This document shows, piece after piece, positions 9,510 to 64,000 of a DNA stretch of 64,000 nt. How positions within the stretch are numbered: position 1 is the first letter of the stretch; each line of letters starts with the position of its first letter. Source of the DNA: Haematococcus lacustris. Lineage: Eukaryota; Chlorophyta; Chlorophyceae; Chlamydomonadales; Haematococcaceae. Both the position numbers and the translations under genes were made by a program. Location of the stretch: positions 9,323,029 to 9,387,028 of the forward strand of contig JASKMD010000017.1 in NCBI GenBank assembly GCA_030144725.1, written 5' to 3'. A model generated the notes under the pieces. The model made no database searches. It was not told where the DNA came from and saw only the letters and a list, made by a program, of their open reading frames with translations.

Positions 9510-10314
9510 GCTCATGCGGGCCTCGCCGCGAGAGACCGCCGCGACCGACGTGGCCCAGGAGCACCTGCACATAGTGAGGGACAGTCGCCGCAGTCAAAGC
9601 GGTTCACATGGCATGCCAAACCGATGTAACAGCCTCATGGTCCCCCACATCAACCACCACCTGCCCCACCCTATGAGTTGCAACTGCTGCTTTCATCTCC
9701 GCCTTTGCTGTCCGTCGTTCCGGGTGGGCTAGACAGCACTGCAAGGCAAAGTTAGGTCACGCCAACTTATGTTTCCACAAGCCTGGTTAATGGAATGCTT
9801 TGCTTTCTTTTCCAACAGCTGCTTCGTTGGGTTAGGAACAAAGTTGACACGACAAATTCTGGAAAGTCACAGTGGTCGGTTCGCAATACGCCGGTTTGTG
9901 CAAGGGGGTCCCTTTTTCTGTATAGCCGGCTAGGGAGAAACGAACATTTTCGCACCTCGCTGCAATGTCGCGTGTCAACTTGCCCAACGACGGTCCTCCG
10001 ACAACGCCTGCACCAATGAAAGGTTCGCGGAGTGAGCCTGGCGGGCTAAACATTGATTGTACTTCTGGCTCGATAGCAAGCGCAGCTCTATCCCTGATGC
10101 CGCTACATACCACTAGAACAATCGGTTGTGAGCAGCTGAGCTGTGTCCGCGATCGCTTGCGCCGGCATGGCCTCACTTGCAAGGATTAACGCGCCGCTTG
10201 CCAGTAGACGCGTAGTAATTCGCCGGTGCCAATGTGACAAACGCTATCGAAAACGGTGCAGTATTGAGAGAGTACTTGCATGAAGATTACCAACCCCATG
10301 TTGGGGACTCCTGA
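9510..10314 (+). mobile_element. Repeat family R2, copy 1
   Basis: Two blocks, 9510-9640 and about 9800-10314, match 21656-21785 and 24087-24592 at roughly 75-85% by eye. The right end, GCATGAAGATTACCAACCCC and the bases after it, also occurs inverted at 51040-51077 in the Fanzor cluster. A short frame near 9620 ends in FTWHAKPM, faintly like the NTWHAKKAK stretch of the family-A Fanzor N-terminus. I infer a decayed, non-autonomous relative of that element; the peptide match alone is weak. Confidence 0.6.
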
Positions 10315-10461
10315 CCAGACATCCGCAACATTGTCAACAGAAATAAAGGTCTGAGCGAAGGACGTTTAGCCGGATAATGACTCCTATTTCAAGCACAATG
10401 TAAGGGGGCAGGCGAACCTGATAACCTAATCACAACAAAAATGTCGGCTGTGGAAGAGGGC

Positions 10462-10621
10462 AACCCGATGACCCTATGCAGCGAGTCACTCCCGCCAACG
10501 GTCCCACATGATTTGACCGGTGTCGGGCGAACCGCCTTGCGCAGCTCGCACTACGATGTTTATGCACGCTTGCTCAAACTAGCGCCCCCCTTACCACACA
10601 CTGTGGTCCCTGTCCGACGAG
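10462..10621. repeat. 160-bp direct repeat, right copy
   Basis: Partner of 9071-9230; the two flank most of R2 copy 1. 10622-10918 contains a poly-C run but no feature I can name. Confidence 0.85.
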
Positions 10622-10918
10622 ACGACTAGCGTGACTAGATGCCATGTCCAGGCTATTCCCGGAATAACAGAGGTTCCAGTGGCTATTATCCTACAATAAA
10701 GCTGCCAAAGTGTCAAGGCCAAGGGCAAGGCTGCCAAGCCCAAGCCCCCCCCCCCCCCAGCACCACAACCAGCTCAGGGGTGGTGCCTGCAGGTGTCAGC
10801 TGTTGCTGAGGGGGCGCAGCTGCGGCAAGCTTCCCATGGATGTGGGTGCACACGTGGCTCAGTAGCTTGAGTACCCTCCAGCTGGTGTGTACCTCCTGCT
10901 TGTGGAACTGGAGGTACC

Positions 10919-11875
10919 GTACTATCCCTTTTGATTCCCGAGGCCTCGGAAACTATAATGAAAATATTATTCCCGAGCCATATTTTTCATTGTTTCAAAT
11001 TCCCCGATGGCCAAAGTACGTCTAAAGTTAGTTTTGAGAACATCTTCGTGCATGGAAATAATCAAGCCTCCCACTCCATTAATCTCGCATCAAAACCATA
11101 TGATCCACATAGTCTACTGTCGTGGCCTCTCTTCTAGTGGCCTTATCACCTGACCACGTCACATGGGGCACTGGCAGTGGCGGCATATCTTATCATCTGC
11201 CTTGGAGCATTCAGACTTGCCGCCACCCATTCTGCCGCCCCTCCTGCCGCCACCCATTCTGTTGCCTTGGCCAAAGCACCCCGCCTTGACCGGCTGACCG
11301 TGTATGACCAGTCGCCTCCCCCCTTGACATGGTTGCCAGCCTGGTTGCCACCCTTGCCTGTCCTGTGACCTCAGCCTTTGCCCCAGCCTGGCCCACCTCC
11401 CTCGACCTTGCCCTGGGCATAGCAGCCACCCTTGTTGCCACCCCGGCCTGGCCCGCCGCACTAGCCTTTGCCCCAGCCTGGCCCGCCTCCCGAGCAGGTT
11501 GCTACCAGTTCTCATACGCTTTGCCGGTGCGTGCGAGAGCAGGAGGTGTGCTGGGCGATGTGGCAAGATTGAGGTGTGGAGAAGGCCCTAAATTAGTGCT
11601 CCTAGGTAGTCGCTTCTCAATAATTGCCGCTTGACGATCAAGAGACATTTGGAAGCGTTGTTCATCGTGCATAAGGAGCTCGCGGTGCAGATTATCAGCT
11701 GCGTCGGCGGCATGGATGCCCCGGACCACAAACTGGTCCATTGCTGGCACTTTCGTCAAGGTCAACTTATTGTTTGACTACTTCCCGAAAGACCAGAGAA
11801 ATACATTGTTTAATCATTCCCGGTTTCCCGAAGGACAAAAAACGATTCGGGATAGGGAATCAAAAGGGAGAGTAC
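10919..11875. mobile_element. TIR DNA transposon running into the gap
   Basis: The left end GTACTATCCCTTTTGATTCC at 10919 is matched, inverted, by 11855-11875 with one mismatch. Repeated CCCGA/TCGGG motifs lie subterminally at both ends, as expected of transposase binding sites. The right terminus sits exactly at the assembly gap, so the target duplication cannot be read. Minus-strand frames at 11502-11765 and 11159-11566 lie inside; neither is recognised. Confidence 0.6.
11159..11765 (-). CDS. Hypothetical frames inside the TIR element
   Basis: Two overlapping minus-strand frames. 11502-11765 encodes 87 residues containing an acidic/amphipathic stretch around LLMHDEQRFQMSLDRQA. 11159-11566 encodes 135 residues rich in Arg, Gly, Gln and Trp and ending in a Cys/His-containing tail, KICRHCQCPM. 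I do not recognise either. A nucleic-acid-binding element protein is possible from the Arg/Gly-rich tail, but composition alone could give this. Confidence 0.2.
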
Positions 11876-12375: not shown

Positions 12376-12378
12376 CAG

Positions 12379-16965: not shown

Positions 16966-17757
16966 TCAGGATTGCTTACAATAATGAGAACTTGCATGAC
17001 TTCATGTGAGCCCATGTGCACCTTTGTTTGTGCACCTTGCTTTGAAGTGCGGTACAGAAAGTCCCGAACCCCTAGAGGGGGAGGGCGGCCTAGCAGCCTA
17101 ACGGTGGCCCATCATCAGTATTGCTTGTCTTGGGGCATCTTTCCAAAGTTTGGCTGCCGCGGTTGACACAGCCTCGAGCTGAGGGTGTAGCCGACCCTAG
17201 ATCGTTGATGTCAGGCTTCTGGAACATGTTGTAGCTGTTTGTAGCAACCCAATGTTTTGCGAACGCGGTGTAGTGGTGGTGGTGATAAGTAGCTATCATC
17301 ATGGCTCATAGTGCGCAACAGGGCCGACCACTATGTTCAGTTTCTTTTTCATGGCGATGTCGTGATCAGGCCCCAACCCATCAGTAGCATGCTCTGTATT
17401 AAGGCAAAAATGAGCATGCTTGCCATGCAGCCATGCAACTTTACTTTTATAGAAAGCAGTTGCAGACGAACAAAACTTAGTGAACATGGAACAACATATC
17501 TGATTGTGAGTACGCTGTTGGAGCCCCAGTTACAGAGCCCGAGGACGGGGGCTGCAGTGCAGTGAGCAAGCGGTGGCCAAAGCATGTGCGGGGCCTGATG
17601 TGGAAAATCGTAGTTAGGCACCTTCTTGGAGATTAGGGGCTCAAGCAAGTCAGCCCAACACCGTGGGAACCTTGGACAGAGGTTGTAGTATTGCGCCAGC
17701 ACTGCAGCTGGTAATCCGGGAAGACATACATGCATTTGCACATGCCACCATGGAAGC

Positions 17758-20700
17758 TCAAGGTGGCACTAGGGCATGCCGGCTGGCAGGCTGGAGGCCC
17801 AACGCTAGCGCCAGCGCCTTGTTGCAGGTAGGGGAGCGGTGGCCATAGGCAGCCTGCCAGGGCTCTTTGTACGCCTCCAGCTCCATTCGCACTTTGGCCA
17901 CCTCCAACTGCAGGATCAGGCAACATGGTTGCAGACATGTGCACACAATGCAAGCCACCACATATTATGCATGAAATGATGATTGCGTTGCAGCTGCTGG
18001 GCAGGCCATGTGACACAAAACACATTTCTTTGTTTTGATGTCTAAGCGCAGCTTGGCTCTGCCATTGCTGACAAGAGCAGCTCAGCCTGGCAGCCTGCCT
18101 AGCGGCCTTGCTACCTGCCCCACCGACCGCCCTTCAGCGACACCCCTTTCGCCCCTCTGGCCAACTGGCTGCCAATGGCCACACCCTCACGTCACATAGA
18201 ATGCGCCCGATGCCCTTGGACCGCCACAATGTACACAGAGAGCCTGGCCATGCTTGCAAGGCAACCCCTCCTGGGTCACCACTAAGTTATCTCTCTATAT
18301 ACACAGACACAAACACTGGCTGCCACCACATGAACATTTCCACACTGTAGAACGCCTCACCTTGGCCGCTGCGTGCTCCACTTGGTGCACGGCTGCAATC
18401 TGGTTAGTGAACTGGATGCTGAGGGCCGACAGGGAGTTGGAGCGCTCCTGGTCTTTCAGGTGCAGCAGGGCGGCCACCTGCACCAGCTCAGCAATAGCCA
18501 AGGTAAAGAAATGCGGTGGAGGGACGCGATGGCTGTGACAGTGGTGCCAGGCCTGCGGGTGTGAGACCATGTGCGCACGTCAGCTGAGCTAGCTCCCGCT
18601 TGCAATCCACAAACCATCGCTTGCACTGCGCCAGCGACGCACCTCCACTGCGTGACGCCGCGCCTGCTCGCTATTTTGCCGGCACCGGGCCTGCGAATGC
18701 CTAAGCGCCTCCTTGAGCTCAAACGCACGGTTGGAACTTGCCTTCTTTGTGCGCGCGTCGTGCTCTGACAATGAAGACACTGCCTGCGCACCGGGAATCG
18801 AGAGAGGAGGTGTGAAGCCCCGGTGTGACGATGCCCGGCCCTGTAAACTGGGGAAACGGTCTCGTGACGGCGCAGCCGAGCAGCAGCGCAGTCAGCTGTG
18901 AGTACACCTAGACAACCTGCGCCTGCTCCTCGCCCTGCGCACCTGGTGCAAAGCTACCATCTGCGACGCGGCGGCCGCGGTGGCCTGGTCAGCCTGAGCC
19001 AACGCTGCCTGACACTCCCGCAGGTCGGTGTGCGAGGCGAGCAGTTGCGCCTGCAGGTCCCGCAGCTGGCTCTGCTGGCTGCGGCACTCAGCCTCCAGCC
19101 GCTGCACCTGCATTGCAAGAGTGGCATGCTGAAAAACCCCCAGTGCATCTGGATGAAGTCCGTCAGCAGCTCAGGGCACAACCCAAAAGCCAAGACCTCT
19201 GTAGTGTGCCCTGGCACCCTGGAACTGAAAACGATTTGAAGCTGCTACATGGCCACATGGAGCTGGAAGCCCCCCACTGTTTGGGCCACTGTGTGAACCC
19301 TGTCCATGCAGGGTTGTGTCTACTCTCCCCCTTCCCCTGCCCAGCCCCCCGCCCTCCCCTTGCCCAGGCCCAGCCCCTGCTGCACCTTGCCACGTCCCAT
19401 CACCCCAAGCCACCCCATGGGGCAGGTGGCTGTACCGGGACACCAATCCCTGCTTCAATTTCCAGCGCATTGGGGAGAGCATGCAGCGCCCTCTGGAGGC
19501 TCTGCCTGTCCCTGGCAGGCTACAAGCTGCTCAATGACCGACTGCCAAAGGCCACGCAGCGGCTGCACCAGGCTGCAGGGTACCGGCGGAGCAAGGATGG
19601 TTACGCCCGCAACCATTTCAAGGGGCGTAGTAGTAGGGCTTGCAGGCCAATGGTCAGGGAACGGAACGTGGCACCAGGTATGGGGGTTGCAGTCATCAAG
19701 GGTGCGACCGATGATGCTATAGTCGCGCAGGCTGTTGCTGAGTGAGGACGACACCCTCTTTCACGTGGGTGCGGGAATGTGCACCCTGGAAGCCCCTCCA
19801 CGCCCCCTGCTGCCTGTTCAGCTCATGCGGCGCCGGCCCTTGACAAACCCAACCACCATGGACATACCACAGCACTTGGCACAAGGCATGAGGGCCACGG
19901 GCTAAAGCTCTGGACTCGTCACCAACCCCAGCATGTACTGCTACTGTGTTGGGCCTGGTCAGGTCCTGTCAGGTGAGAGCTGGATGCTGACCCTGACAGT
20001 GCTGGGCACCGCACCGCCAGACACTACCTGGCCCTCCTCTCTGCTCCCTGCCTGCCCTCCCTGCTCCTCAGCTCCGGGCCTGCCTATCACGAGTGACCCA
20101 CAGCCCACCTTCTCCTGTGTGGCGCTCTGCATCTCTGCCTGGCTGCTTTGCAATGCTTGCACCTGCTGCTGCAGCTGCTCGATCTGGCAGGCTTGGTCCA
20201 ACATGTACTCCCTGCACCGTGCAACCAGCACCATGCATGCGCACGTCAGGTTATGAATGAGGAAAGCTACCAGTGGGCGCCACCTGCTAGTTCTCAGCTG
20301 CGGTTTACCAGGGAGGTGGTGTTTGGCTGCTGAAACACACAGCCATGGATTGTTTGGAGCACACTGTCAGCAGCCATGTCCCCCACTGAGGCGAAAGTGG
20401 CAGCTGTCACCTTCTCCCCACCACCACCACCACCACCACAGCTAGGCAGCTGGCCAGGTCTAAGCAGCCATACCACCCTCAACATGCAGTTGCCTGCAGG
20501 AGCTGCGCTGGTGGCCACAGGCTGCCTGCCCTGCCTGTTGAGGACAGGAAGTGCTAGTAGGCCTGTGTTGCACTGAGCTGCAAGACCGCATGCACCCTGC
20601 CCGGCCATAGCCAGCGCAACAGGGTGTGCAAGCCCAGAACAACACACATCAATGAGAGGACATCACACATCAGTGAGACCACACACATCTGTGAGAGGAC

Positions 20701-21398: not shown

Positions 21399-22122
21399 AC
21401 CGTCTAAGGCCCGTCGTCAAAAGGCACAAAAGTGTTTGAAGCGCTCTCTGCATTCCTGCAACGTAGCAGGACAGATGTGCCACCCTGATGTATGCAACGA
21501 CAAAGGTAATTAAACGCTCCGCGATCCTTCTTTTGGTGCAGGCGGTGTCGGAGGGCCATCGTTGTGCAAGCTGACTATTGACATTGCAGCAAACCCGTGG
21601 GAGGTGCATTTCTCTCTGGCCAGCCCCACGACAAACGACCCCCTTCAACACACGGTAATGCTCATGCAGGCCTCGCCGCGATCGACCGCCGCGACCGACG
21701 TGGCCCAGCAGATCCTGCAAACAGTCAGGGACAGTCTCCGCAGTATAATCGATTCACATGGCACGCCAAACCGATGTAACCGCGCCACTCCACACATGCA
21801 CATAAATATACAAGGCTGTTGCATTGCTTGACCGCTTCGTGAGTAGTTCCTACTTCCTGGCCACTCGGTAAGGCCACTCAAGGTGTGTAGGACATTGCTA
21901 CGTTACCTTGCTCGACATGTTGGGTCCGATCCCTCCCGCCCGCCCTGCGCTTGCGTGTTGAGCTTGTGTCCAGCTCCGCCCTGACCCCTTGCTGCTCAGA
22001 TGGAGGGGTGGGCATCCCAGGGGCGGCACCAGCGCCAGCTGCCAGCTGCTGCCAGGGGGGGGCAGCAGGAGGGGGTTGGGAGGGCGGGGCTGGGGTTGGG
22101 AGGGGGTAGCTGGGGTGGGAGG

Positions 22123-23866
22123 CAGGGTTGTGACTTTGCATTCTTTCATTTCTTTCATTCATCATTTCATCATGAAATTTGTGAAATTTCATGAAAAGAA
22201 TGAAAGACATGAAACGGGATGAAAACGCGTGGTTGCCGTGGGAGTTTTGACCTGAAACTTTGCACACGTCCCTCTTTAACATCTGCCAACCCAATGCAAC
22301 AATCAGGATACGATTTGGTGCACCACATCCACCAAAACCAAAGGTCGTCAAGGATATCCAGAACCAAAGGTTAACAAGGATACCACAGCTCCAAACCATG
22401 CATACTAAGCTGGTGAGTTACCTACTACTGCCTGATACTCCCCCACCGTTGCTGTTCATGCATGATGTCATGCTATTGCCCCCAAGACCACCACACCACA
22501 CCACACCACACCACACCACACCACACCACACCACACCACACCACACCACACCACACCACACCACACCACACCACACCACACCACACCACCACCACCAAGC
22601 CACATCAAGTACGGTGGATTGGCTCTCCTACTGCTGTCCCCTTGGGGGAGGGATGGGCTGGGTCAGTGTGGTGTGTGGGCATGGCATGGCTAGAGTGGAC
22701 TGGCTGGCCGCTACTACTAGCGCCTGCTCCATGCTGCCCGCCCAAGGCTGGCCTTTAGGGAGGAGGAAAGTGGCTCCCACTCTTGGGTGCCGCTCCTGGC
22801 TGCCCGCTCAAGGCTGCCTGCTCCAAGCTACCCACTCTAGGCTGCTATGCCAAGGGCTGTTGGGTAGGGTAGGGAGGGGGCTACGGCGTGTGTTGTGGGA
22901 TGGGGGGAGGGTAGGTGGGGTGGCAGACTCGGAGGTGGCGGTGGTGGGAAGGGGGAGGGAAGGGGGGAGGGGGCAAGGGGCAGGAGTGTGACCATAAGAC
23001 CTGCAGCCAACAAGGGGCATCCTTGCAGTCAGGCTGGACATTGGGGGCCACTCATGTGCAGGGGCCGGGCACTTACAGTTTTGCTCCATGTTACGCCTTG
23101 CAAGCTCATTGCTGGCTCCTGATGCCGGCTGGTCTATGCCGCTGCCATGACATGAAACGGGATGAAAAGAAAGAGGCTGCTCCAAGCTGTTGTTGATGGC
23201 TTGGGAGGTAGTGGTGGTGGCAGGACATGCATGACCATGCATGATGTTGGCTGCTGCTCTACACCGCTGCCGCCTTGCGTGCAATTACCAAGCCATCCTA
23301 CACTTGTCATGCACCAGCTGTCTCCAACTGCAAGCAAACATCAGCCAGCTCAGGCTCAACAAGCTGATTAATAAGTCATAATAGCTTAAGGGCAATGGCT
23401 GCAGTGTCCTCAGAGCACCTCACAGCGGCTTCCTGGGCTTTTCATGGCACTTGCAAGTGATTCTTCAAGCGCGTATCATGGCAAGTGCGTTTCTAAGCGA
23501 GTGATGAACATGTCCTCACCGCAATGAAGGCAAATCCCGCGAACCACTGCTCCACCACAGTCCTCCATTGCGCTCTGAACTGTGGTTGCACCTGCGGCTG
23601 CACCTGCTGTTGTACCTGCGGCTGTGCCTGCGGCTGTGTGCGATGCCTTTTCGCGTTAGGCTGTAGAAGGATGTTGTGCTGGAGTACCCGTGGCAATGCC
23701 AGCGAAGGGCCAGCGAACATGAGCCACCTCAGCCATCGGGCTCTACTCGTGCTGCCGGGTGCTGGGGGCTACCGGGATTTCATTTGTTGCAGTGAAAGTT
23801 TCATTTCTTGCACGTGAAAGATTTCAGTGCAAGATTTCATGAAATACTGCAATTTTCACAACCCTG
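22123..23866 (+). mobile_element. Non-autonomous hAT element, copy 1 (1744 bp)
   Basis: Begins CAGGGTTGTGACTTTGCATT and ends with the inverse, TGCAATTTTCACAACCCTG. It is flanked on both sides by the perfect 8-bp duplication GTGGGAGG (22115-22122 and 23867-23874). CAGGG termini with an 8-bp target duplication are diagnostic of the hAT superfamily. Both ends carry clusters of TTTCA/TGAAA subterminal motifs, and GACATGAAACGGGATGAAAA occurs twice inside. No transposase frame is seen; short frames such as 23493-23720 (Gln/Pro-rich) are not transposase-like, so the copy probably needs an enzyme supplied elsewhere. Confidence 0.93.
22491..22587. repeat. (ACACC)n pentanucleotide inside hAT copy 1
   Basis: Pure ACACC array. 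The inverted sister element at 29071-31244 has the same array about five units longer, accounting for the 25-bp length difference left after its nested insertion is removed. Confidence 0.9.
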
Positions 23867-30750: not shown

Positions 30751-30876
30751 TGGTGGTGTGGTGTGGTGTGGTGTGGTGTGGTGTGGTGTGGTGTGGTGTG
30801 GTGTGGTGTGGTGTGGTGTGGTGTGGTGTGGTGTGGTGTGGTGTGGTGTGGTGTGGTGTGGTGTGGTGTGGTGTGG
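30751..30876. repeat. (GGTGT)n pentanucleotide inside hAT copy 2
   Basis: Reverse complement of the ACACC array in hAT copy 1, expanded by about five units. Confidence 0.9.
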
Positions 30877-31291
30877 TGGTCTTGGGGGCAATAGCATGAC
30901 ATCATGCATGAACAGCAACGGTGGGGGAGTATCAGGCAGTAGTAGGTAACTCACCAGCTTAGTATGCATGGTTTGGAGCTGTGGTATCCTTGTTAACCTT
31001 TGGTTCTGGATATCCTTGACGACCTTTGGTTTTGGTGGATGTGGTGCACCAAATCGTATCCTGATTGTTGCATTGGGTTGGCAGATGTTAAAGAGGGACG
31101 TGTGCAAAGTTTCAGGTCAAAACTCCCACGGCAACCACGCGTTTTCATCCCGTTTCATGTCTTTCATTCTTTTCATGAAATTTCACAAATTTCATGATGA
31201 AATGATGAATGAAAGAAATGAAAGAATGCAAAGTCACAACCCTGCCTGGATGTGTTATGCTGATGATGAAATGAGGCTGAAGGGTTCTTTT

Positions 31292-31999
31292 GAGCAGCCT
31301 GGGTGCCCGGATCACACCTTGTGCTGGCGTAGGCTGAACGGCCCTTCACGCTTTACGATCGCCCAGATCAGTGTATTTTCACACAACCGTGTATTTTTCA
31401 CGGGAAACCCAAGTTGCTAGAAAAGGCTACCGCCCGTCGCACTGCGCATCGCGTGATGGCTAAGAAGAAGCGGAAGGGTAGCGACAAGAAACATAAAGGT
31501 TCGTGTCCCCAGCCGTGACGTGAGCCCTAGACGTGAGTTACGCGCTGTGAGATAACCCGGTTCTCCTGTTGGTTCCATACCTGAGAGCAAGTGGCGGCCG
31601 CTGGAGCTGTGCTTCTGGCCAGAGCAGGGGAAGCTGCCAGCCAAGGGCAAGGAGTACCCTGGCCTGGGCTACAAGCGGCTGCGAGACAAGCCCCCCAAGG
31701 CCCAGGAGCAGCAGCAGCAGCCTGCTGAGGCACAGTAATGTGTGCCCCCCCCACTTTGAGCTGTCATCAGCTTGCAATTAGTGCATGCAGGTCATGCCAA
31801 CTCTACATCATAGCCCTCGGGTCAGGCAATAGTGTAGGTGGTAGGCAGGCTCATGTGCCATGTGCACTGGGTTTACTCCACACAGCCCAATAACACTGTT
31901 TGAGTCGGCCCATTATTGCCCACTAGTATAATCCCGCTAGTGGCTGCTAGTGGGTACTTCTGATCCGACTGAAATGGAGGCCCTAGTGAGGGACAATAG
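31292..31999 (+). mobile_element. Fanzor family-B deletion derivative B1
   Basis: Flanked by the 17-bp direct repeat GGCTGAAGGGTTCTTTT (31275-31291 and 32000-32016). Inside are the family 5' leader, a start exon (31456-31498) encoding the basic peptide MAKKKRKGSDKKHK, which looks like a nuclear localisation signal, then a jump to the Fanzor C-terminal tail (about 31590-31738, WRPLELCFWPEQGKL to the stop), then the conserved 3' segment. All RuvC motifs are deleted. The first 54 bp (31292-31345) instead match an exon and splice donor of the RNB gene near 36566-36613. Confidence 0.8.
31850..31999 (+). ncRNA. Candidate guide-RNA (omega/fRNA) scaffold, B1 copy
   Basis: This 3' segment is nearly identical at 37645-37799 and, inverted, at 61742-61895. 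It contains a perfect 8-bp stem with a 6-nt loop (31933-31954, CCCGCTAG, TGGCTG, CTAGTGGG). TnpB and Fanzor guide RNAs come from the 3' end and UTR of their elements, so preservation here despite loss of the protein suggests a structured RNA. No transcript evidence exists in the sequence; it could also be a transposition end. Confidence 0.35.
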
Positions 32000-32099
32000 G
32001 GCTGAAGGGTTCTTTTCTGGCACTTTTTTGGCACATGCCTGTGTCCTTGACTTTGGCACACACAAACAATACTAGAAACAAACGTGAATGACAGGTACT

Positions 32100-32529: not shown

Positions 32530-40804
<8,275 letters not shown>

Positions 40805-45347: not shown

Positions 45348-45770
45348 TAGAACCCTCACTAGGGGTATTGATTTGCCTGTATGGAGCCATCCACCTACAC
45401 CATTACCCGATCCCTGTGGCAGGGCTATAACCTAGGATTGGCATGACATACATGCACTGTTGCAAGCTGATGACAGATCGGAGGGATGCTCCTTGCACAC
45501 ATCATCGTACCTCAGACTGCTGCTGCTGTTGAGCCTTGGCGAGTAGCTCAGGCAGGTCAGGCAGACACTGTCCAGCCACCTCCCTCGGTGCGGCGCAAAC
45601 GTAATGTCAAAGGCTAACAGCCTGTACAAACTACTAGGCCCTATGAGTTGTTGCGGGCCCGGCCATCAATGCCCCGCCAGTTCTCTGCAGTCCGGTGCAG
45701 CCGCTGCCTGCCCTTGGGCAGCCGGCCATTGACCAGCTTCATTGACCGCTATCTTATGGGGTCCTCATGG
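45348..45770 (-). pseudogene. Fanzor family-B C-terminal/3' relic
   Basis: 45348-45480 resembles the 3' flank of the Fanzor gene at 61.9 kb (CCACCTACAC, then TTGGCATGAC and AAGCTGATGACAG in order). 45640-45770, read on the minus strand, gives KLVNGRLPKGRQRLHRTA and DGRARNN, matching the relic at 19.5 kb. Frames are broken. Confidence 0.6.
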
Positions 45771-47038: not shown

Positions 47039-49830
47039 TCACAGGGCCAGCCCTGGGTCAGGGTCTGCCTGACAGTGGCGCAGGCTGCCGCCCTCCACCT
47101 GCCTTGCGTCCTGTGCTGCTGGTTGGGGGGTGGTCACCCGGCTGGCAGCCATCTGCTGTGTCTGCTGGAACTGATGTAGTTGCTGTAACTGCTGCAACTG
47201 CTGTAACTGCTGCAACTGCTGTAACTGCTGCAACTGCTGCAACTGGTCTCGCAAGGTAGGGTCGTGAGGGGGATTAAGATGGAGGCGCTGGTGGTATGGC
47301 TGCTGGTCTGACTGCTGTTGGGGCTGGAGCAGCAGCCCTGGCCAGTCAACCCCAGTAGCCATAGCCATGCCCCCTCCCCCACAAAGCACTTCCTGCTGCT
47401 GCTGCTGCTGCTGCTCCTGCTGCAACTGGAGCTGTAACTGAAGCAGCATCTGCTGTTGCTCGAGCTGTTGCTGCAGCTGCTGGTGATGGTGTTGGTACAG
47501 TTGTTGGTGCTGCTGCTGCTGCTGCTGCTGCTGACTTTGCTGCTGCTGCTGCTGCTGCAACATTTGACCCTGGGCTGCCCACTGCTGCCCCACCCTCCTC
47601 TTCTCATCCTCTCGCTGCTGCCGCTGCTCACTGTCAGCCACCAGGACGCTGACACCTGCCAAGTCACCCAAGCTGGCCTGGGCCCACTCCATAGCACCCT
47701 GCAGCTCATCATGACCCTGGCCTAGCCCTGACCGCAGCTGGCCCTGCCCCTGCCCCTGCCCCTGCCCCTGCCCCTGCCTCTGACCCTGCCTCTGACCCTC
47801 TGCTCCACCCACTGCATGCTGTGCGCGGGGCCCTTGTGACTGGTATTTCATCTGAGGGTCCTGCCCACCGGCCAATGGCAGCGCCCCTGGGCCTTGTGGA
47901 CCACACAGCTGGGCGGCTGCCTGGGGCCCCTCCCCCGCCTGTAGTCCGCCCGCGTTACACCCCCCTTCAAGGCCCAGCACCCCCCCAGGCACGCCATGCA
48001 CACTAGCAGCTGGCAGCCCCACTGCAATGCCACCTGCACCCCCAGCCTCTCCCCCTTCCCTGACACGGCCTCCAACAGCCCCAGCCCCAGTCCCAGCCCT
48101 GGCTGTCGTGCCCAACATCTCCAGCTGCCGCCTCATCCCTAGCTCCAGCAGCGCCTGGTGCTGACCTGACTGTGACACTAGCAGGCCATAGGCAGCTGCT
48201 GCCTGGGTGCCACCGGGGCTACCCTCCTCCATGCACCCCTGCTCCCCCTGCCCATGCCCCTGCCCATGCCCCTGCTGCTGCCCCTGCTGCTGGCCAGGGC
48301 TGCTGCCAGACCGGCTGGGTAGGCTAGGGGTGGGGTGGCTGCTGTGGCTGGTTGCTGACAGCAGCTGCAGCAGCCTGGGGTCCAGCACTGGGTGCAGGCT
48401 CTGTGCGGTGCAGCCACCCCCCGGCTCCCCTGACCCGCTGCTGCCGGCCCGGCGGCCAGCACCTGACTGTGGCTGTGGGAGCAGCAGGGCACTGTCACCG
48501 CCGCTGGAGGGCCGCAGCAGGCTGGGCACGGGCTGCACCAGCTGCTGGTTGTGAGGCAAGGTGGGGTAGGGCTGCAGGGTGGGGAGCTGGTGCAGCAGCT
48601 CTGAGCCCCAGGGCAGCTGGGTCAGAGTGCTGGTATCGCCGGCATCCAGCCCAGCATCCAGGCTGGGCAGCTGCTGGGTGGCAGGCCGGTAGTGGTTGCG
48701 GCCGCGTACGTGCCCCGCAGCCTGCCCATGGCTTGGCACCGGGGGGGAGGGGTGGCTGGGTGCCCGGGCGCCTGCCCCCGCTGCTGGGCGGGCGGGTGGC
48801 TGGCTGGGGCCCAAGGCGGAGCAGGTGAGCAGCGCAGCCTCCAGCTTCTCGTTGCTGTCCTTCAGAGTCAGTATGTGCTTGATGACCTGAGAGGGGCAGA
48901 AGGCACCACCATCACCACCCACGCCAGCACTGTCAGGTCATGGAGAGCACCAAGCCGTGCCACGGCTGCTGACCCAGGGCCCTGCTTTGATTGTGCTTTT
49001 TGCTTGGCACATGGCGCCCAGTGGGTGGAGTGTGCGGGCTTGACTGGCATTGACCACAGATCAATGCAAGCCTTTTGCGCGTAATCTGTTCCTGGGTTAA
49101 GGTTCATTACGGCCTGGCCTTGTGCAGCGATGTCTGTTGAGTGGCAGATGTTGGTGGTTGGGTGGGCGGGCTGAGGGGTTGATAATGATTGCTGGTGTGA
49201 CAGCATCACTGCTCATGGGCAGCATGACAGCTAGCAACCAGCATCCAGTGGGCTGCTCTTTGTTTGAAGCATCCAAGAGTCTGAACTATGCTCAGGATGA
49301 AGGGGCCAGAGCAGAGTGCTATGGCCCTGCGGAGGAGCCATCAAACAAAAGACAGGCTTCCCATAAGGCGGCACTGCATGCACTTGATGAGGGGAGCATT
49401 CGGGCACTGAAGGGGGAAGTGAGCTCCTTGAGCGCCCACCTCTTCTAGAAAGCTGGCGGTGTTGCTCCGCGCATCATGTGGAACTAGTTTCCTAAGCGCG
49501 TCAATTCTGCGGCAACAAACGTGCTGCACATGTGCCCCATGTGCATACATAGGGGCCCGATGGCGGGGCACTGCAGGCAAGGACAGGCCGCTCGCACGAT
49601 GCGATCGCCCTGTGTAGGTAGCAATGGCAAACGTGCTACTTCACCCCTAGCTGCCATAATTACCTCTCGTTCACGCGTTGACGACGCCGTGCCTCAGCTG
49701 CTTTATGGCGCACGGCATAGTCTGCCGAACCAGCACCTTGCCCAGGCCTACCCCGCTTTGACTGCCGTGCTCGGGGCTCGTCTGAGTCTAGCTCCCCGCC
49801 GCTGTCCTCTTGCTGTCGCCCCATAGAGGC
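47039..49830 (-). CDS. bHLH transcription factor, Gln-rich
   Basis: Exons: about 49830-49664, 49506-49440 and 48886-47039 (stop at 47039); the splice phases fit. Joined, they give a textbook bHLH: basic region HKAAEARRRQRVNER, helix 1 and loop IDALRKLVPHDARSNTASF, and helix 2 EEVIKHILTLKDSNEKLEAA. The basic region has the His, Glu and Arg pattern of E-box binders. The last exon (616 codons) is low complexity, Gln-, Gly- and Pro-rich, with poly-Gln runs encoded by CAG, as in activation domains. The start is uncertain (candidate Met in MGRQQEDSGG). Immediately upstream and in the same direction lies a Fanzor family-A fragment that may have supplied promoter or 5' sequence. Target genes are unknown. 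Confidence 0.88.
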
Positions 49831-49884
49831 CGCAAGTAAGTCCAAAAAGTGCTGTACCCACGAGGGGGCAAGGTGATGTAGTGA

Positions 49885-50473
49885 CTGGTAGCGATCCTCG
49901 CAGGGAGTGACGACAAGCTTATAAACCTGGGGCCCGCGTCGGGGTGCGCGGCCAGCACGGCAGCGACTGCTGCACTCGGCTGAGTGTTCTCGCCCTCTCC
50001 GGGCAGGCCGCGGCACAGCTGCAGGTACAGATTCCTGCAGCTCAGGTTCGGGATGTCTGCTGCGGAGACTGGGATGTCTGTGTCTGTGTATGACAGTGGC
50101 TGGCCTTGCGCGTCAAGCTGGTCGGCTACGTGCAGGGTAAACAAGTCGCGCACGAGGAAGCCCAACAGCAGGCTGCCAATCACCCCTCGCTCGCTGATGC
50201 CCTTCACTCGTGGGCGCACAGCCTTGTCAAGGAAGGCATCCCAAAGCGCTTGCGGAAGGTGGTCGATGAGGTGGTCTAACTTGGCCTTTCTTGCGTGGAA
50301 CGTATTGTCTCTGCTGCGGGCAGCGCGGGCCTCTCCTGAAGCCTTCCTTTTGCGCTGTGCCTCGGTCAAGTCGGGTTGGCCTGCCTCGTCGCGGTCAACT
50401 ATGTCGAAGTCCGGGTCCTCCGGCACTGCTCTAGGCCCACCCACACCGGTTCGTCTCTTCTTCCTCGCCATAA
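49885..50473 (-). pseudogene. Fanzor family-A N-terminal fragment A2
   Basis: From ATG 50473 the frame reads MARKKRRTG, KASGEARAARSRDNTFHARKAK and, further on, IPNLSCRNLYLQLCRGLP and QPSAAVAAVLAAHPD. This parallels the plus-strand copy at 51614 (KASGEARRDRHDKN, NTWHAKKAKR, IPNLADRNMYLQLIRGLP, QPSAAVEDVLALYPG). Only the N-terminal ~190 residues are present; no RuvC motif follows. It is divergent (head-to-head) with the 51614 copy. Confidence 0.75.
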
Positions 50474-50604
50474 ACAATAACAACGCGAGGCAGCAACATA
50501 TACTAAGGATTTTCGTGTTTGTCACACACATGTCTACATATATGTCTACAACATGTTATACATATATGTCAATCCCTTCAATCCCTTACAAGTGCGCACC
50601 GCTA

Positions 50605-50758: not shown

Positions 50759-50780
50759 CTGGATACCTATACCTGCTGGA

Positions 50781-51040
50781 TACCTGAAAGCAAAGGTTGC
50801 AATAACTTGAGCCGTGACCCATACGCGACTCGCACACAGTAGCTTGTGCACGTGCACACAGTAGATTGGACGCTTGCATGGCGCATTCGATATGTCCACA
50901 TTTGGCTCACCCGGTCAGTAGCCGTGCTGGAAAAAGTATCAAAACCGGTGTTCTGAGCAGCATCAGTAGCAGGGTGCAATGCGACTCAGGCTGTAGTGAC
51001 CACCTTACCCAACCGCATCTAGCAACTGCCTCTGTGTGTC
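50781..51040 (+). repeat. 260-bp repeat Y, left copy
   Basis: Matches 54568-54830 in the same orientation with about 90% identity by eye (CTGAAAGCAAAGGTTGC, then GATATGTCCACATTTGGCTC). The pair brackets the plus-strand Fanzor gene. The short core GATATGTCCACATTTGGCTC occurs a third time at 51331-51350. Confidence 0.85.
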
Positions 51041-51613: not shown

Positions 51614-54287
51614 GTGATGCAGCGAAACAGGCAGCGTAAACGTAACCGTGATGCCTCGGATAGTGAAGTTGACCGCGAGCTCGAGGCTCAGCCAGAGCAA
51701 AGCCAGGCGCAGAAGAACAAGAAGGCCAGCGGTGAAGCTCGCAGGGACCGGCACGACAAGAACACATGGCATGCGAAGAAGGCCAAACGGCATACCGTGA
51801 TGAGGGGTGTGTGCACTGCTGGTCTAGAGGCGGGAGCGGTCGTGGCGTCCGAAGTGGTCGAGGCGCGGGTCGTCACGCAACTCGAGGCTTGGGTGGAGGC
51901 CTGCAGCATGAGAGCTCTGCTCGGCAGCTTGCTACTGGGCCTCGCGGTGCGAGGCTGGTTCACGCGGCTCAGGGGGCTTCCTGACGGGCAGGAGGTCTTC
52001 GAGGAAATCCCAGCTGAGGACGCGTTCATCCCGAACCTGGCGGACCGCAACATGTACCTGCAGCTCATCCGCGGACTGCCTCCTCCCGGAAGGCGCTCCT
52101 CTCAGCCCAGCGCAGCTGTGGAGGATGTGCTGGCCTTGTACCCGGGTCTCCACGCCCGCCTCAACGCTGTACCTCGCTATGGGCACGACTCCAACACCGT
52201 GGACGACGTGGGCACCAAGCTGGAGACTAACTTCGCCAACAGCCTCACCGAGCTGTTCCCCCGCAGGGTTGAGCAAGCGGTGGCTCTGGCTGGAGCCCGG
52301 GTCATCGCTGGCTCATACGAGCACCGGCGCCGCTTGTGGCTGCCCGTGGATGGCAGTCCAGCCTGGACTGAGCGTCAGCGCAGCTGGGTGGCGAGGAGTG
52401 TGCAGGGGAAGGTGGTGACCTGGCTAGAGGGTCAGGAACAGGGTCAGGGTGGGGTGGTGCCTACTGCTGCAATGCGGGACGAGGTGGCTTGGCAGCGGAG
52501 GTTGCTGGGGCTGGGTCAGGGGGTGGTGGTGAACGACGCCTGGCTGGAGAGGGGGGTCTACCGGGGCAGCCTGCTGCGCCATGCAGTGGACATCAGCAGA
52601 AAGCTGGAGGCAGCCCACGTCAGCTGGCAGCTGGACTGGGCGGACTGGCAGGCAGTCGGGGGGCAGCGCAACACCAGGCCCTACCGCCCCCCCTCCCCCT
52701 TTGCGCTCACACCCAGCTGCAGCTGCAAGGCTCACCACATCAAGCTGGACACCAAGGCCCTATTTGGCTTGATGCGTACTGCTGGCATGCTGCCAGCGGA
52801 CATCACCTCCTTGCCCAAGTTCAGGAGTGGTGTGGCCGGGCCCAAGGACAGTGAGGTGAGTGATCTTTGAGTGTGCTCAGGTCAGCCACTGCTTTGATTG
52901 TGGCAGGTTGATGGCGGCAGATTGTTTGAGGCAGATTGTTTGAGGCAGATGGTCTCTAGGTGACCTCAAGTGTGTTGTGGTGGCTGATGTTGGCTGCATG
53001 TGGCCAACCGGTGGAACGCCTTCCTGCCCAACCTCGCAGCCGTCCGGCCCAACGTCGGGCAGATATTCGCGCAGGTGGTGCACACTGACGGAGTCGCTAT
53101 CAGCGTGATGTTCATCTGCCCCAAGCCAGCAGAGCCGCCCGACAAGCTGCCTTGCATGGGCAAGGAGGAGGGCGCTGTCAACCCGCTGGCGCACCTGCAC
53201 GCGGACTGACTGGGCTGCGATCCAGGCAAAACCAACATGGCGACAGTGGCCCACGAGGAACGGTACCCCTCCGGAGCTGTGCAGTCCGTGTGGCAGCGCA
53301 GCCTGACCGCGGGGCAGTACTACCGGCAGGGCGGCATCACGGAGCACGCCAAGGAGTCCAAGGTCTGGATGGCCGGCATCCAGCCTCAGCAAGATGAGCT
53401 GTCGCAAGTCACCAACTACACCGCCTCGCTGCAGCGGTACCGGGAGTACGCTGACACGACGCTGGCGACCTGGCCCGCCATGTGGGCCGAGATGTCCAAG
53501 CGGCGCTGGAGGCAAGCAGCGCACGGTGGCCAAGTTCTGGGCTGAGGTGAGTAGGCCGTACCCCCAGCCAGTATGTGTGCCAGTATGTGTGCTCACAATG
53601 CTAGTCTTTGCCATGACTTGACCTGAGCTCACAATGTGTCTCTCCTTGTGTGCCCTGGCTGCAGACTGTCAAGGGTGCCAAGGTACGCTGAAACTCGGCT
53701 GCCACAGGTCGCCTCCTGGCCCTGGCCTATGGGGCAGCAGGCTTCAGTGGCAGTGGCAGCATTGGCAGCAAGGGTGTGCCTGTCAAGCAGATGCGACGGG
53801 AGGCATGCAAGCAGTTCCCCGGGCGTGTGGTGCTGGTGCATGAGTTCCGGACCAGCCGGGTCAGCTCTGCCCGCACCAACGTGGTGGCAGGTCAGGCTGA
53901 GTCCTTCAGGTGAGAGACTTCAGATGCATTCGCACTGTAGGAGTAGAGTCATTACATAGCTGTATAGACTGTGCCCTGCACTGCTCAGGCTATACATGGC
54001 TTGGCTTAACACTTGGTTTGTCAAGGAAGGGTCTTACAAGTGAGCAGTGACATATGTTGCCTTGCAGGTGGCTGCACCCGGTGCGCAGCATGGCGACGCG
54101 GTCCCGGATCCGGGGCCTGATGTGCTCAACAAGCAACGGCATCAGGTTCTACGACCGAGACGTGTCAGCCGCGCTGAGCATCGCCCGCATTGCAGCCTGG
54201 CCGGATTGCAACCTGACAGAGGCCTGCTGCGGAAGTGGCAGCGGCGGCACCAGCGGCAGCGATAGTGACATGTGTATCATGCCATGA
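51614..54287 (+). CDS. Fanzor family A, RNA-guided nuclease homologue (TnpB/RuvC), near-complete but damaged
   Basis: Eukaryotic relative of TnpB/Cas12. The first frame (51614-52855) encodes a basic, NLS-like N-terminus and a helical domain. The next block, from about 53000, has VANRWNAFLPNL and VVHTDGVAISVMF. RuvC-I reads LGCDPGKTNMATVA (53213 on). RuvC-II reads VVLVHEFRTSRVSS (about 53827-53868) after AYGAAGFSGSGSIGSKG. RuvC-III reads RFYDRDVSAALSIARIA (about 54145-54190); the stop is at 54287. The zinc-ribbon region is degenerate (RGLMCSTSNG). Problems: an in-frame TGA just before RuvC-I (HAD-stop-LGCDPG), a likely frameshift near 53511, and no acceptor AG for the 52856 intron. It is probably a recently inactivated copy, or spliced in a way I could not resolve. 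Confidence 0.8.
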
Positions 54288-54497: not shown

Positions 54498-54830
54498 GCA
54501 GAGCTGGTAGTGATCCTATCCCGGGCCAGGGAGTAATGACAAGCTTACAAACTTGGGGCCATATACCTGAAAGCAAACGTTGCGATAACTTGAGCCGTGA
54601 CCCATACGCGACTCACACAGTAGCTTGTGCACGTGCAGAATTGGACGCTTGCATGGCGCATGTCGATATGTCCACATTTGGCTCACCCGGTCAGTAGGCC
54701 GTGCTGGACAAAGTATCAAATTCGGTGTTCTAAGCAGCATCAGTAGCAGGGTGCAACGCGTATCAGGCTGTAGTGACCACCTTACCCAACCGCATAGATG
54801 CAGATGATAGATCTACCAACTGCCTCCGTG
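54498..54830 (-). mobile_element. Internally deleted family-A derivative
   Basis: 54498-54560 matches the inner end of fragment A2 (49885-49940, AGGGAGTGACGACAAGCTTA region) and is joined directly to repeat Y (54568-54830), which in the 50-kb copy lies upstream of the start codon. About 830 bp of coding sequence has been lost between the two blocks, as in MITE-like derivatives. Confidence 0.65.
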
Positions 54831-54871
54831 TGACATCCGTGCAAGGTAGCTGTGGTGATAGGCAGAAGCAG

Positions 54872-54975
54872 CCCCCTTGTCCCTCACTAGGGCCTCCGTT
54901 TGAGCCGGACCAGTAGTGGCCACTAGCAGCCACTGGCCGGAATACTAGGAACCACTAGTAGCCCGACTCACCTGG
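54872..54975 (-). mobile_element. Family-B 3' end fragment B4
   Basis: Matches the outer ~95 bp of the conserved family-B 3' segment (CTTGTCCCTCACTAGGGCCTC, then GCAGCCACT), but the hairpin arms have mutated and no longer pair fully. Nothing else of the element is present. Confidence 0.65.
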
Positions 54976-55210
54976 TGTTCCTGGAACATGAGCAGATTTG
55001 GCTTTGGCATGGGTAGATTCGATCAGAATTATTGTGGTTCACTTGTTCGTCGTGACCAGTTGTGAGCTTTCTGTCTGAATGTGAAGCCGCGCCCATCCTA
55101 ACCTAACCCTATCCTATCCTGACCTGTGACCACATGACCACATGACCACATATCCACACATATCCACACACATCTAACCGCTATCGCAACTCCTGAACCC
55201 CACAGCCCCC

Positions 55211-55330
55211 ATGCTACACCAAAATAAAGCTTGAGTTGGAATCGAACCTGGCTGCGAGCTCATCATTGTAAAGGCTACCGACAGTGAGCCTACTGCCCAC
55301 TTCAGCTCAGCCTTCTGGTGTGTGTGCCTG
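55211..55330 (-). repeat. SINE-like repeat R3, copy 2
   Basis: Minus strand contains GGTTCGATTCC, a consensus RNA polymerase III B box, about 40 bp downstream of a weak A-box candidate. Partner of 41903-42025. Probably a tRNA-derived short interspersed repeat, not a tRNA gene, because no acceptor stem pairs. Confidence 0.45.
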
Positions 55331-55398
55331 TGCCAGTGCCTGCGCCTGTGCCACACACATCGCAAGGCGCCAGGCACATTGCTGAATCAGAGCGCTGA

Positions 55399-61475: not shown

Positions 61476-61485
61476 TCATCTTGTA

Positions 61486-61553
61486 GATAGGTGGCTTACA
61501 CCGCTAAAGCCGTCAGCCGTAAGGCTGCTTGGCCAGTGTAAGCCACCTATCTA
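61486..61553. mobile_element. 68-bp inverted-repeat mini-element
   Basis: Perfect 16-bp inverted arms (GATAGGTGGCTTACAC at 61486-61501, inverse at 61536-61551) surround a 34-nt centre that can itself pair partly. Flanked by the 10-bp direct repeat TCATCTTGTA (61476-61485 and 61554-61563). It looks like a very small MITE insertion; a hairpin RNA precursor is the alternative. Confidence 0.6.
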
Positions 61554-61638: not shown

Positions 61639-61735
61639 TGGGTAGGGCTCTATCGACTCCCAAGGTTAGGGTCAGGTAAACCCCAACTAACAGGAAACCT
61701 ACCCCTGGTAATTCCCCGACGCCGCATCTCAGCCC
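61639..61735 (+). mobile_element. Fanzor family-A/R2-related remnant at the B3 insertion site
   Basis: GGGTAGGGCTCTA with the following CGA resembles the sequence just after the family-A stop (54319-54345). CCCCAACTAACAG and CCCCTGGTAAT match 9305-9342. The family-B copy B3 abuts it at about 61736, suggesting insertion of B into an older A/R2 copy. Confidence 0.45.
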
Positions 61736-61741
61736 CCTTGT

Positions 61742-61895
61742 CCCTCACTAGGGCCTCCATTTGAGCCGGATCAGTAGTACCCACTAGCAGCCACTAGCGG
61801 GATTATACTAGTGGGCAATAGTGCCCCGACTCAAACAGTGTTATTGGGCTGTGTGGAGTAAACCCAGTGCACATGGCACATGAGCCCGCCTACCA
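61742..61895 (-). ncRNA. Candidate guide-RNA scaffold, B3 copy
   Basis: 3' non-coding end of the Fanzor gene B3, about 100 bp past the stop. The hairpin at 61780-61801 is identical to those of B1 and B2. If this is the guide-RNA scaffold, the guide would be read from sequence just beyond the element end near 61735. Expression is not shown. Confidence 0.4.
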
Positions 61896-61993
61896 CCTAC
61901 ACTATTGCCTGACCCGAGGGCTATGATGTAGAGTTGGCATGACCTGCATGCACTGATTGTAAGCTGATGACAGCTCAACAAAGGGGGCACACA

Positions 61994-64000
61994 TTACTGT
62001 GCCTCAGCAGGCTGCTGCTGCTGCTGGGTCTTGGGTGGCTTGTCTCGCAGCCGCTTGTACCCCAGGCCAGGGTACTCCTTGCCCTTGGCTGGCAGCTTCC
62101 CCTGCTCTGGCCAGTAGCACAGCTCCAGTGGGCGCCACCTGCTCTCCCCAATGCGCTGCATGTTCAGCGCTGCATTGCAGTCCCTGTCCAGCCACCTGCC
62201 TGGCTGTGGGGCTGGCTTTGCCTTGGCAGCCTTGCCTTTGCCTTTGCTGGGCTCAGCTGCCGGCTCAGCCTTGGTGCGCTTGGTGCGCTTGGCTGGCTGG
62301 GGAGTGCTGGGCCCTGGCTCTGAGGCTGCTGTCGGTGTGGCTTCCTGGCTGCTGCGTGGGGCCTGTGGGGGCTTGCGGGGGGCTACTACCGGGCACCACA
62401 TCATGCCCCGCACTGGCTGGCCACGCCCCTGGCTCCAGGCTGGGCGCACCAGGCGAGGTTCCACCTGCCCTGCTGGTGGCTTCCTGCCTGCAGGCCTGGT
62501 GGCACTGAGTTTGTCCAGCTCCTCACAGGGCTGCTGGCCATTCACTGCTGAGCTGACCCGGCTGGTGCGGTGCTCATCCACAAGCACCACCCTGCCCCGC
62601 CGCTGGTCTGTGCCCCTGGGCCTGCACACCACCTTGCGGCAGGCACGCAGCACCGCATCAGCACCCCACCCACCCCCAGTGCCAATGGTAGCAGCGCCAA
62701 AGAACACCACCAGCTGCTTGGCATGCCCATGGCGCTCCATGGACACCTCAGCCACCTCCTCCTCCAGCTGCAGCCATGCACACAAGGCACATACATGGTG
62801 GCTGACATGGTGGCACCAGGTTAGGCATGGCACAGTCAACTACTCCTTCATATCATGCCCAACCCACCACCTCCCAGTGCCTTACCCTCCCTCCCACACA
62901 CCTACCCACCCACCCACCCTCACCTTGTTGAAGAACTGCTCCAGCGCCCGGTCCTGGGCTCCGTACAGCCTCAGCCGCTGCCGTGCCCACTTGGGGTCCA
63001 GGTACAACTCACACACCGCATCCCAGGTGGCCAAGGTGACGGTGATGTGCTTCAGGTTTGCCTCCAGGGAGGTGCCGGCTGAGCTTGCTGCTGCCAGGTG
63101 CTGGAGGTGGGGCTTGATCGGTGCTAGCCACCGCTCAGTGTCACGGCGGGCATTGTTCAGGCCGCTGGAATGCTTCACCTGGCCCTTGGTCAGCTTCCAC
63201 CGGCGCAGCTGGTCTGCCATCAGCTGGCCTGACTGCGGATCCCACACCCCAGAGGCTGCGCTGACTGCCTGGGTGACGCCGGGGTCGATGCCCACCCCAA
63301 TCTGGGTCAAACACAAACTCACGCATCTCAGCTATGCCCCTGCCTATGGGGGAGCCCCACTGCATGAGCCGCTGCTGCTGCTGCACTTGGGTGGCTGCTG
63401 GTGCTGCTGCTGCTGGCAGCTGGGGGTGGGCCTGGAGGATGGGGAAGGGGGCGCGTGTAGTGCACGCACACGCTGACACCATCTGTGTCCACCAACCTCT
63501 CGAAAGCAAACTCCTTGTTACGGAGCTTCTTGGTGTCGAACCACCTGGCCCATAATGGCTCAGTGCTGGCTCTGAAGTGAATGCTGCCCGGGCACCTTGG
63601 TTAGGCCCAGCTGCTTGCACACCCCATGCAGTACCCTGCTGTCCACCTTGCTGAAGTGCACCCCCACCCTGGCCATGGGGGTGAGGGTGAAGGGGGGTGG
63701 GCAGGTCAGAACCCGGGGACCAACCCCACGCCTCTTGCCGCGCTTTGGCTGCCCTGGTGCGGGTGGGGTGGGGGGCTGCTGCCACCGCTCTAGCCACCGG
63801 CACACATGCACTGCATGGCGCATGCGGCAGGGTAGGGGCAGGGTGTCCTGCAGGGAGCCTTGCTTCTTCATGCCCAGTAGGCGGCGGTGCGTGTTGGCCT
63901 CCTCTATCAGGTCCACCACATGCCCCTCGTCCAGGGTGGCGGCCTTCAACTCCGAGCTCTTGGCGTTGATGCCATACCCGCACGCCATCCTGATGAACAG
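61994..64000 (-). CDS. Fanzor family B, RNA-guided nuclease homologue B3, N-terminus beyond window
   Basis: Frame enters at 64000 and reads ACGYGINAKSSELKAATLDE (N-terminal helical region), then HFSKVDSRVLHGVCKQLGLT. After an unresolved small intron or frameshift near 63575 it reads PLWARWFDTKKLRNKEFAFE with VDTDGVSVCVHYT. RuvC-I is VGIDPGVTQAVSAASG (exon 63307-62924, ending FFNK before a GT donor). The last exon, 62767-61994, carries VVFFGAATIGTGGGWGADA, RuvC-II VVLVDEHRTSRVSS, a Lys/Ala-rich insert, RuvC-III GRWLDRDCNAALNMQ, and QRIGESRWRPLEL to TAA at 61994. All three RuvC acidic motifs are intact. The zinc-ribbon position keeps one Cys (GMMWCP). This is the best candidate for an active nuclease here. 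Confidence 0.85.

Follow-up and report, generated by a model that had tools for sequence, protein, structure and literature searches.

A 64,000-nucleotide stretch of the 308 Mb genome of the green alga Haematococcus lacustris, here called the window, holds decayed copies of Fanzor1-related genes from three families, A, B and C. The family B elements that we examined have a single fixed end, which lies on the 3′ side of the nuclease gene, and the target duplications that flank them, where found, start with the element's own last bases. From this fixed 3′ end the insertions extend back over a variable distance, or jump once to a 5′ block. On balance, we lean towards the view that family B spread by 3′-anchored, target-primed copying of one kind or another, from either an RNA or a DNA template. 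Coding pieces in the window were mapped by tblastn, with seven relatives from the three families as queries, and non-coding B and C ends were located by DNA comparison.

Fixed 3′ end and variable 5′ parts of family B

A first look for the family B tail gave 4,435 candidates genome-wide, of which the best-scoring 40 were scored and 20 were fetched with long flanks; the other flanks were 1.5 kb long, some of them too short to include the 5′ side. The scored tails are 96–100% identical to the query with the query's own place included, and 96–99% identical in the other 39; several of the loci are duplicates of one insertion. Family B copies end at one exact 3′ terminus, ...GGGGGCTG, and of the 40 tail alignments 37 run to the last or last but one of the 265 query positions, two ending at 259 and one at 262. 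Three copies in the window, B1, B2 and B3, have target duplications:

31292..32004, + strand: family B copy B1, with 60 nt of upstream sequence, the 5′ block, an internal deletion, the 3′ coding end and the tail
31275..31291, + strand: 5′ copy of the 17-nt target duplication of B1
36875..37805, + strand: family B copy B2, with 16 nt of upstream sequence, the 5′ block, the first exons and introns, an internal deletion and the tail
36862..36874, + strand: 5′ copy of the 13-nt target duplication of B2 (14 nt counting one more shared G)
61730..64000, − strand: family B copy B3, running past the window to about 64672 (window numbering), with the last intron present and an exact 3′ end
61720..61734, − strand: 3′ copy of B3's 15-nt target duplication, the first five bases of which overlap the element end
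61730..61850, − strand: B tail, candidate omega-RNA scaffold (sense-strand fold z −3.1, antisense z −1.0)

On both sides of B1 and of B2 stands an exact repeat whose first bases are the element's last bases, and the starts given for them in an earlier note on this DNA, 31292 and 36875, are exact, since the target duplications end there. The 5′ copy of the B3 duplication lies beyond the window and was seen in locus L001.

The junction motif is present at 33 of the 36 distinct B ends, and those 33 were tested for flank repeats, with one mismatch allowed and a start in GGC required, a requirement that is circular for the motif itself. Repeats of at least 13 nt were found at 10 of the 33 ends and of at least 14 nt at eight. 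When all 1,056 mismatched pairs were used as a control, 13 reached 13 nt. Five of these compare one physical stretch with itself, three come from insertions that are duplicates or otherwise related, and the remaining five are chance hits of exactly 13; no unrelated pair among the 1,056 reached 14 nt. A first control sample of 260 pairs had given two hits, both trivial. In a motif-free test of 8-nt flank matches, GGCTG stood before 8 of the 19 in true pairs as against 7 of 333 in a control set that still includes duplicate loci (Fisher p 7e-8). Altogether, eleven distinct B insertions carry duplications of 11–20 nt, nine plus two from the exact-match list; these duplications adjoin GGCTG in nine of the insertions and GCCTG in two.

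None of the eleven is full length. Five are 5′-truncated, all at different points, to 275, 1,014, 1,124 and 2,943 bp and, in the shortest case, to an 87-bp insert that holds just the last 34 to 41 element bases. The other six reach the 5′ block with an internal deletion that differs in each, and between 16 and about 117 bases precede the first position that matches B2. The sequence upstream of the 5′ block is partly common to some copies (L027 and L035 among them) and partly not; one stretch is common to four of eight copies (L033, L035, L043 and L044), which otherwise differ. Deletion breakpoints vary among copies and show short shared bases or filler; they do not resemble GT-AG splicing, which was accordingly rejected as the origin of the deletions. 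In L025, a 35-nt downstream piece is repeated at the 5′ end, as expected from template switching. L033 and L035 have 281 nt of 3′ flank in common before they diverge, and their 5′ parts and deletions differ; we did not accept them as a clear 3′ transduction, given this divergence and the lack of a duplication at either.

The introns have been kept in the copies examined. All seven distinct loci that span both exons have the last B intron, which in some of them aligns only in part with that of B3. The first exons are likewise separated by their introns in all nine copies with that region, B2 included. The template was thus not spliced mRNA, and spliced copies, which might have proved an RNA template, had to be given up as evidence.

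Family C fits the same insertion rule, with a different end. Its tail ends in ...GAGTTG, and the duplications TTGTTTATGATATA and GTTGTTTGATC, of 14 and 11 nt, start with those last bases (TTG or GTTG) in two of the four copies tried; the two C copies in the window have no duplication of 10 nt or more. Another C copy, nearly complete, is found upstream of B3 just beyond the window (L001 5360–8251, − strand); the insertion that holds it measures 3,268 bp and has a target duplication of 14 nt. In L001 and at window positions 55187–55361, the C tail includes GGTTCGATTCC, which we take to resemble a tRNA T-arm or B box and which is absent from the copy at 41895–42280.

Copying mode and its alternatives

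Variable duplications, 5′ truncation and an exact 3′ end form the pattern of long interspersed nuclear elements (LINEs) and Penelope-type elements, and the exact 3′ end, the variable 5′ parts and the motif-led duplications together point to target-primed copying from the 3′ end. Under such a mechanism, a nick would leave the target with a 3′ terminus in ...CAGCC, or minimally ...CAG, able to pair with the element's terminal GGCTG. The paired end would prime copying of the element in the 3′-to-5′ direction, with template switching, and a second-strand cut some 11–20 nt away would give rise to the duplication. The template might be an unspliced Fanzor transcript, copied by a reverse transcriptase acting in trans in a Penelope- or LINE-like manner, or it might be a DNA strand. 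The loss of introns that LINE-type copying through an mRNA stage would lead one to expect is not seen, whereas Penelope-type copying carries no such expectation. The nuclease itself may have a putative role in cutting targets, or in homing to empty sites.

The tail may have a role of its own. The sense strand of B tails folds strongly (z −3.1, −3.2, −3.6 and −2.3), the antisense strand does not (z −1.0 and −0.5 in the two tested), and the sense energy is below the antisense energy in 28 of 29 distinct tails, all close relatives. The tail at 61730–61850 is therefore a candidate omega-RNA scaffold, and the family B nuclease is a predicted RNA-guided DNA endonuclease whose guide RNA would comprise the folded 3′ tail and the adjoining flank. 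Should the flank that follows GGGGGCUG be the guide, an empty site would read as GGCTG followed by the guide target, with GGCTG in the position of a target-adjacent motif. The element's own 3′ junction would read alike, so that the motif would have to be longer, or self-cutting avoided otherwise. A bolder proposal, which we regard as doubtful, is that the folded tail RNA doubles as guide scaffold and as the end that is recognized when the unspliced transcript is reverse-transcribed. If that were true, these would be Fanzor retroelements whose insertion sites match the terminal bases of the element itself, GGCTG in B and TTG in C.

Several observations weigh against target-primed copying, or against its RNA-templated form. 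No duplication of at least 13 nt was found at 23 of the 33 B ends, although some of the 1.5-kb flanks miss the 5′ side. Two insertions picked from the exact-match list, L042 (11 nt) and L032:6531 (13 nt), share just CTG, not GGCTG. The sample consists of the best-scoring 40 of thousands of tails, 20 of them with long flanks, and its duplicate loci reduce the number of separate insertions. Intron retention argues against a spliced mRNA template, and just one of 37 pairs in the RNA fold has changes on both sides, for which reason covariation was rejected as evidence for the fold. A motif scan of the fetched loci and the window found no reverse transcriptase or HUH protein with a B tail; the two reverse transcriptase frames that it did find both belong to a LINE-like element in L046 and L037, which ends in a CAT repeat, not in GGCTG, and was for this reason rejected as the partner of family B. 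These non-LTR-like frames lie at L046 3721–6498 (+ strand; RVT_1 E 6e-31) and L037 2648–4126 (+ strand; RVT_1 E 8e-29), and 3′-end fragments of the same element are found in the window at 16978–17104 and 61491–61534. The whole genome has 4,540 RVT_1 candidates, of which 150 were scored.

A very similar pattern in Chlamydomonas was explained by Bao and Jurka as one-ended Helitron transposition (PMC3627910), and family B could likewise consist of non-autonomous Helitron2 elements moved by one-ended rolling-circle transposition, as they proposed for CRe-1, CRe-2 and CRe-3; we treat this as a tentative alternative. In the passages of that paper on CRe, the elements have intact 3′ ends, 5′ truncation with internal deletions, and short captured 5′ sequences, and their duplications are variable, about 7–19 bp, and lie beside a fixed short motif, much as they do here (PMC3627910). 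The DNA template would also be compatible with intron retention. On the other hand, insertions of Helitron-1N1 and Helitron-1N2 are described there as making no duplications (PMC3627910), whereas duplications are found in family B. A fixed 5′ end with a hairpin would be expected of Helitron2 as well, yet most 5′ sequences differ, and no common 5′ end was seen apart from the stretch present in four of eight copies.

It seems unlikely that break repair accounts for the pattern, that is, that Fanzor or some other nuclease cuts and error-prone DNA synthesis copies the element from its 3′ side. Such repair would explain the shared short bases, filler and template switching at the junctions as well as the retained introns, and the element does encode a predicted nuclease family. 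Break repair alone nevertheless leaves the exact 3′ end beside a matching motif unexplained. Cas12/TnpB-like cuts leave 5′ overhangs, while priming at GGCTG needs a 3′ end. That the copies are ordinary old debris, spread by segmental duplication and decay with no particular copying mode, we consider highly improbable as a general account. Several loci do duplicate one insertion, and the family A copy has decayed; debris may account for A and for the relics, but is unlikely for B given the duplications in distinct flanks, beside which stands a tail identity of 96–99%. The copying mode of family B can be tested from sequence alone, since this genome offers candidate copies by the thousand, clear marks of insertion and a motif identical to the element's own end.

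Relationship to Fanzors and inventory of the window

The three RuvC motifs reported earlier in both long copies can indeed be read in translation, in family A (51.6–54.2 kb, + strand) and family B (62.0–64.0 kb, − strand): RuvC-I as GCDPG in A and GIDPG in B, RuvC-II as HEFRTSRVSS and DEHRTSRVSS, and RuvC-III as DRDVSAAL and DRDCNAAL, respectively. H. lacustris names stand on the 120 listed of 1,316 family B relatives and on the 120 listed of 178 A/C relatives. The split D/E/D arrangement, with all three patterns, was found in 52 of these 120 B relatives and 45 of these 120 A/C relatives, and many of those without all three are partial or chimaeric gene models. Longer relatives exist elsewhere as database gene models, such as P0121 and P0189; viral contigs as an origin of relatives were confirmed in no case. 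An hhalign comparison shows family B and A/C to be homologous (probability 99.9, E 4.5e-35, 430 columns). For the low-confidence predicted model of a C relative (mean predicted local distance difference test score, pLDDT, 41.7), the top five of 33 Foldseek matches among 350,542 chains are Fanzor structures (9cez, 9ceu, 8gkh, 9cey and 9cer; four of SpuFz and one of GtFz), with E values from 2.2e-3 to 0.43, none below 0.001. No Fanzor appeared among the 50 matches shown of 82 for a B model, likewise of low confidence (pLDDT 43.2). Sequence and profile searches of the PDB found no solved relative, with no match in two of them and one unrelated match at E 1 in the third. An Rfam search likewise gave no matches, and an ARAGORN scan of the window no tRNAs.

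The zinc ribbon is another matter. No C4 ribbon between RuvC-II and RuvC-III was seen in any of the 94 B relatives (of 120) or the 52 A/C relatives (of 120) that have both flanking motifs. The ribbon profile PF07282 had no match in the whole genome, while the same profile was positive in 6 of 14 controls. Among four relatives scanned, only P0003 touches the profile, below the cut-off and in its last 14 positions; a precomputed PF07282 annotation is listed for just one of 120 relatives, again P0003. In the account of Bao and Jurka, the C4 finger belongs to a motif that is strictly conserved (PMC3627910). Since the ribbon is missing, we file the three families as a Fanzor1-related variant lineage and not as canonical Fanzors, the ribbon having been lost. 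Whole abundant families are without it, and profile searches with pfam07282 miss them. The earlier note had called these genes Fanzors: the genome-wide PF07282 result, on a test that the note itself had set, goes against that claim, whereas the RuvC motifs, the homology of B to A/C and the SpuFz and GtFz matches of the A/C relative support the view that the genes are Fanzor-related.

The note had also described a dense nest of Fanzor loci from two families; the tblastn search distinguishes three. Seven coding pieces were mapped: 19424–19519, 31577–31690, 37117–37607 and 62039–64000 belong to B, 42139–42279 and 49875–50471 to C, and 51617–54227 to A. Three non-coding ends add to these, two B-like at 45.4 and 54.9 kb and one of C at 55.2 kb. 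Besides B1, B2 and B3, the window thus contains:

51614..54287, + strand: family A copy, decayed, three RuvC motifs readable, 84% to P0121 over the longest stretch
54869..54970, − strand: B4, which consists of the tail alone, from a diverged B subfamily; no protein match
45391..45540, − strand: diverged relic of the B 3′ region, non-coding, about 71% DNA identity
19424..19519, + strand: relic of the B RuvC-III region, 52% over 40 amino acids
41895..42280, − strand: family C 3′ coding end and tail (tblastn, DNA comparison)
49788..50531, − strand: family C N-terminal fragment, 88% to P0186
55187..55361, − strand: family C tail without coding match

The fragment at 49.9 kb had been assigned to family A as 'A2'; its 88% to P0186, against 38–55% to two A queries, places it in C. 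B4 and the relic at 45 kb are B-like DNA, as had been claimed, but only as non-coding tails (54869–54970 and 45391–45540), and the best flank repeat of B4, 11 nt, lies inside the control range. The C pieces at 41895–42280 and 55187–55361 had been omitted, and the latter tail perhaps extends to 55499, a part that matches DNA upstream of the C fragment (50604–50759). Two other supposed Fanzor loci drop out. The 'derivative' of family A at 54498–54830 is a DNA repeat of 50780–51018 and has no protein match, and the R2 repeats at 9.5 and 21.5–24.6 kb have no Fanzor protein match. The latter form a dispersed repeat (9509–10315 and 21517–24633) that is also present in L001, past the C tail.

The window yielded no intact Fanzor gene. 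The family A copy has in-frame stops at 53207–53209 and 53689–53691 and a frame change near 53510. B3 is 5′-truncated inside the coding region, its start at about 64672 (window numbering) being seen in L001, and has two frame changes relative to the gene model P0008 between 63451 and 63300, near the RuvC-I exon. Neither long copy is therefore an intact nuclease gene, and most of the gene is gone from B1 and B2. The suggestion of recent activity holds for family B, with its exact duplications at B1, B2 and B3 and its nearly identical tails, although both long copies are damaged.

As for density, four B tails lie in the window. The expectation per 64 kb is 0.9–1.4, depending on whether it is taken from the genome-wide first look or from other copies, around which 180 kb of flank held four extra tails; the Poisson P is then 0.015 to 0.056, with no correction for how the window was chosen. 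The genome-wide count that the note had called for, with its 4,435 candidates, makes the nest just mildly unusual: the background is very high, the excess over it is modest, and the window was picked because of the nest.

Some neighbouring features deserve mention. An inverted duplication (22120–23866 and 29071–31247), with arms 98–100% identical, about 5.2 kb apart and enclosing a glycosyltransferase-49 gene, has its outer end about 45 bases from B1; it is either a real palindromic duplication or an assembly artefact. Two 500-N gaps lie about 10 kb from it, one on either side. A tandem array of units of about 64 bp occupies positions 1–1700, and an isoamylase C-terminal exon lies at 8024–8641 (ISOA1-3_C, E 4e-38), with a frame upstream of it (5276–5878) that looks isoamylase-like by eye and matches no Pfam family.

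Comparison with known systems

These elements bear on the question of how Fanzors manage to spread when they have no transposase of their own. In the literature covered, Haematococcus and Fanzor are named together in one work, in separate places of its text (PMC12633428), and Fanzor with target-primed reverse transcription, judged by titles, in gene-editing work only; subscription literature was mostly outside this coverage, so the pattern may be published. The closest counterparts are CRe-1, CRe-2 and CRe-3 of Chlamydomonas reinhardtii, described as many-copy, multi-exon Fanzor1 elements of a green alga (PMC3627910) that share the intact 3′ ends, the 5′ truncation with internal deletion, the variable duplications and the captured short 5′ sequences. 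They differ in their Helitron-like ends and in 5′ duplications downstream of TTTT (PMC3627910, in its description of CRe), whereas the duplications here start with GGCTG in B or TTG in C, the element's own end. A Penelope element of rotifers offers a parallel of another kind, a retro-copied gene that kept its introns, with 5′ truncations and a microhomology deletion in related copies and with short target duplications, as set out in the relevant part of PMC3846280; unlike it, family B elements show no reverse transcriptase, and no shared end was found.

Among characterized nucleases, SpuFz1 and GtFz1 provide the five best fold matches of the predicted A/C model, although SpuFz1 is described as having a CCCC zinc finger (PMC10432273), which families A, B and C lack. 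The same source describes Fanzor ghost loci, in which a guide-RNA end stands without a protein (PMC10432273); B4 and the 275-bp and 87-bp copies resemble these. Yet the 275-bp and 87-bp copies carry target duplications of their own, as B4 does not, and are therefore insertions and not eroded copies. With regard to abundance, Fanzor elements of up to hundreds of copies were published earlier (PMC10711439, in its figures on copy number), and in the green alga Auxenochlorella a Fanzor-encoding repeat, called uncharacterised where it is mentioned, is the commonest repeat of the genome (PMC12633428). Copying from the 3′ end would help explain how Fanzor-like genes come to flood a genome in this way.

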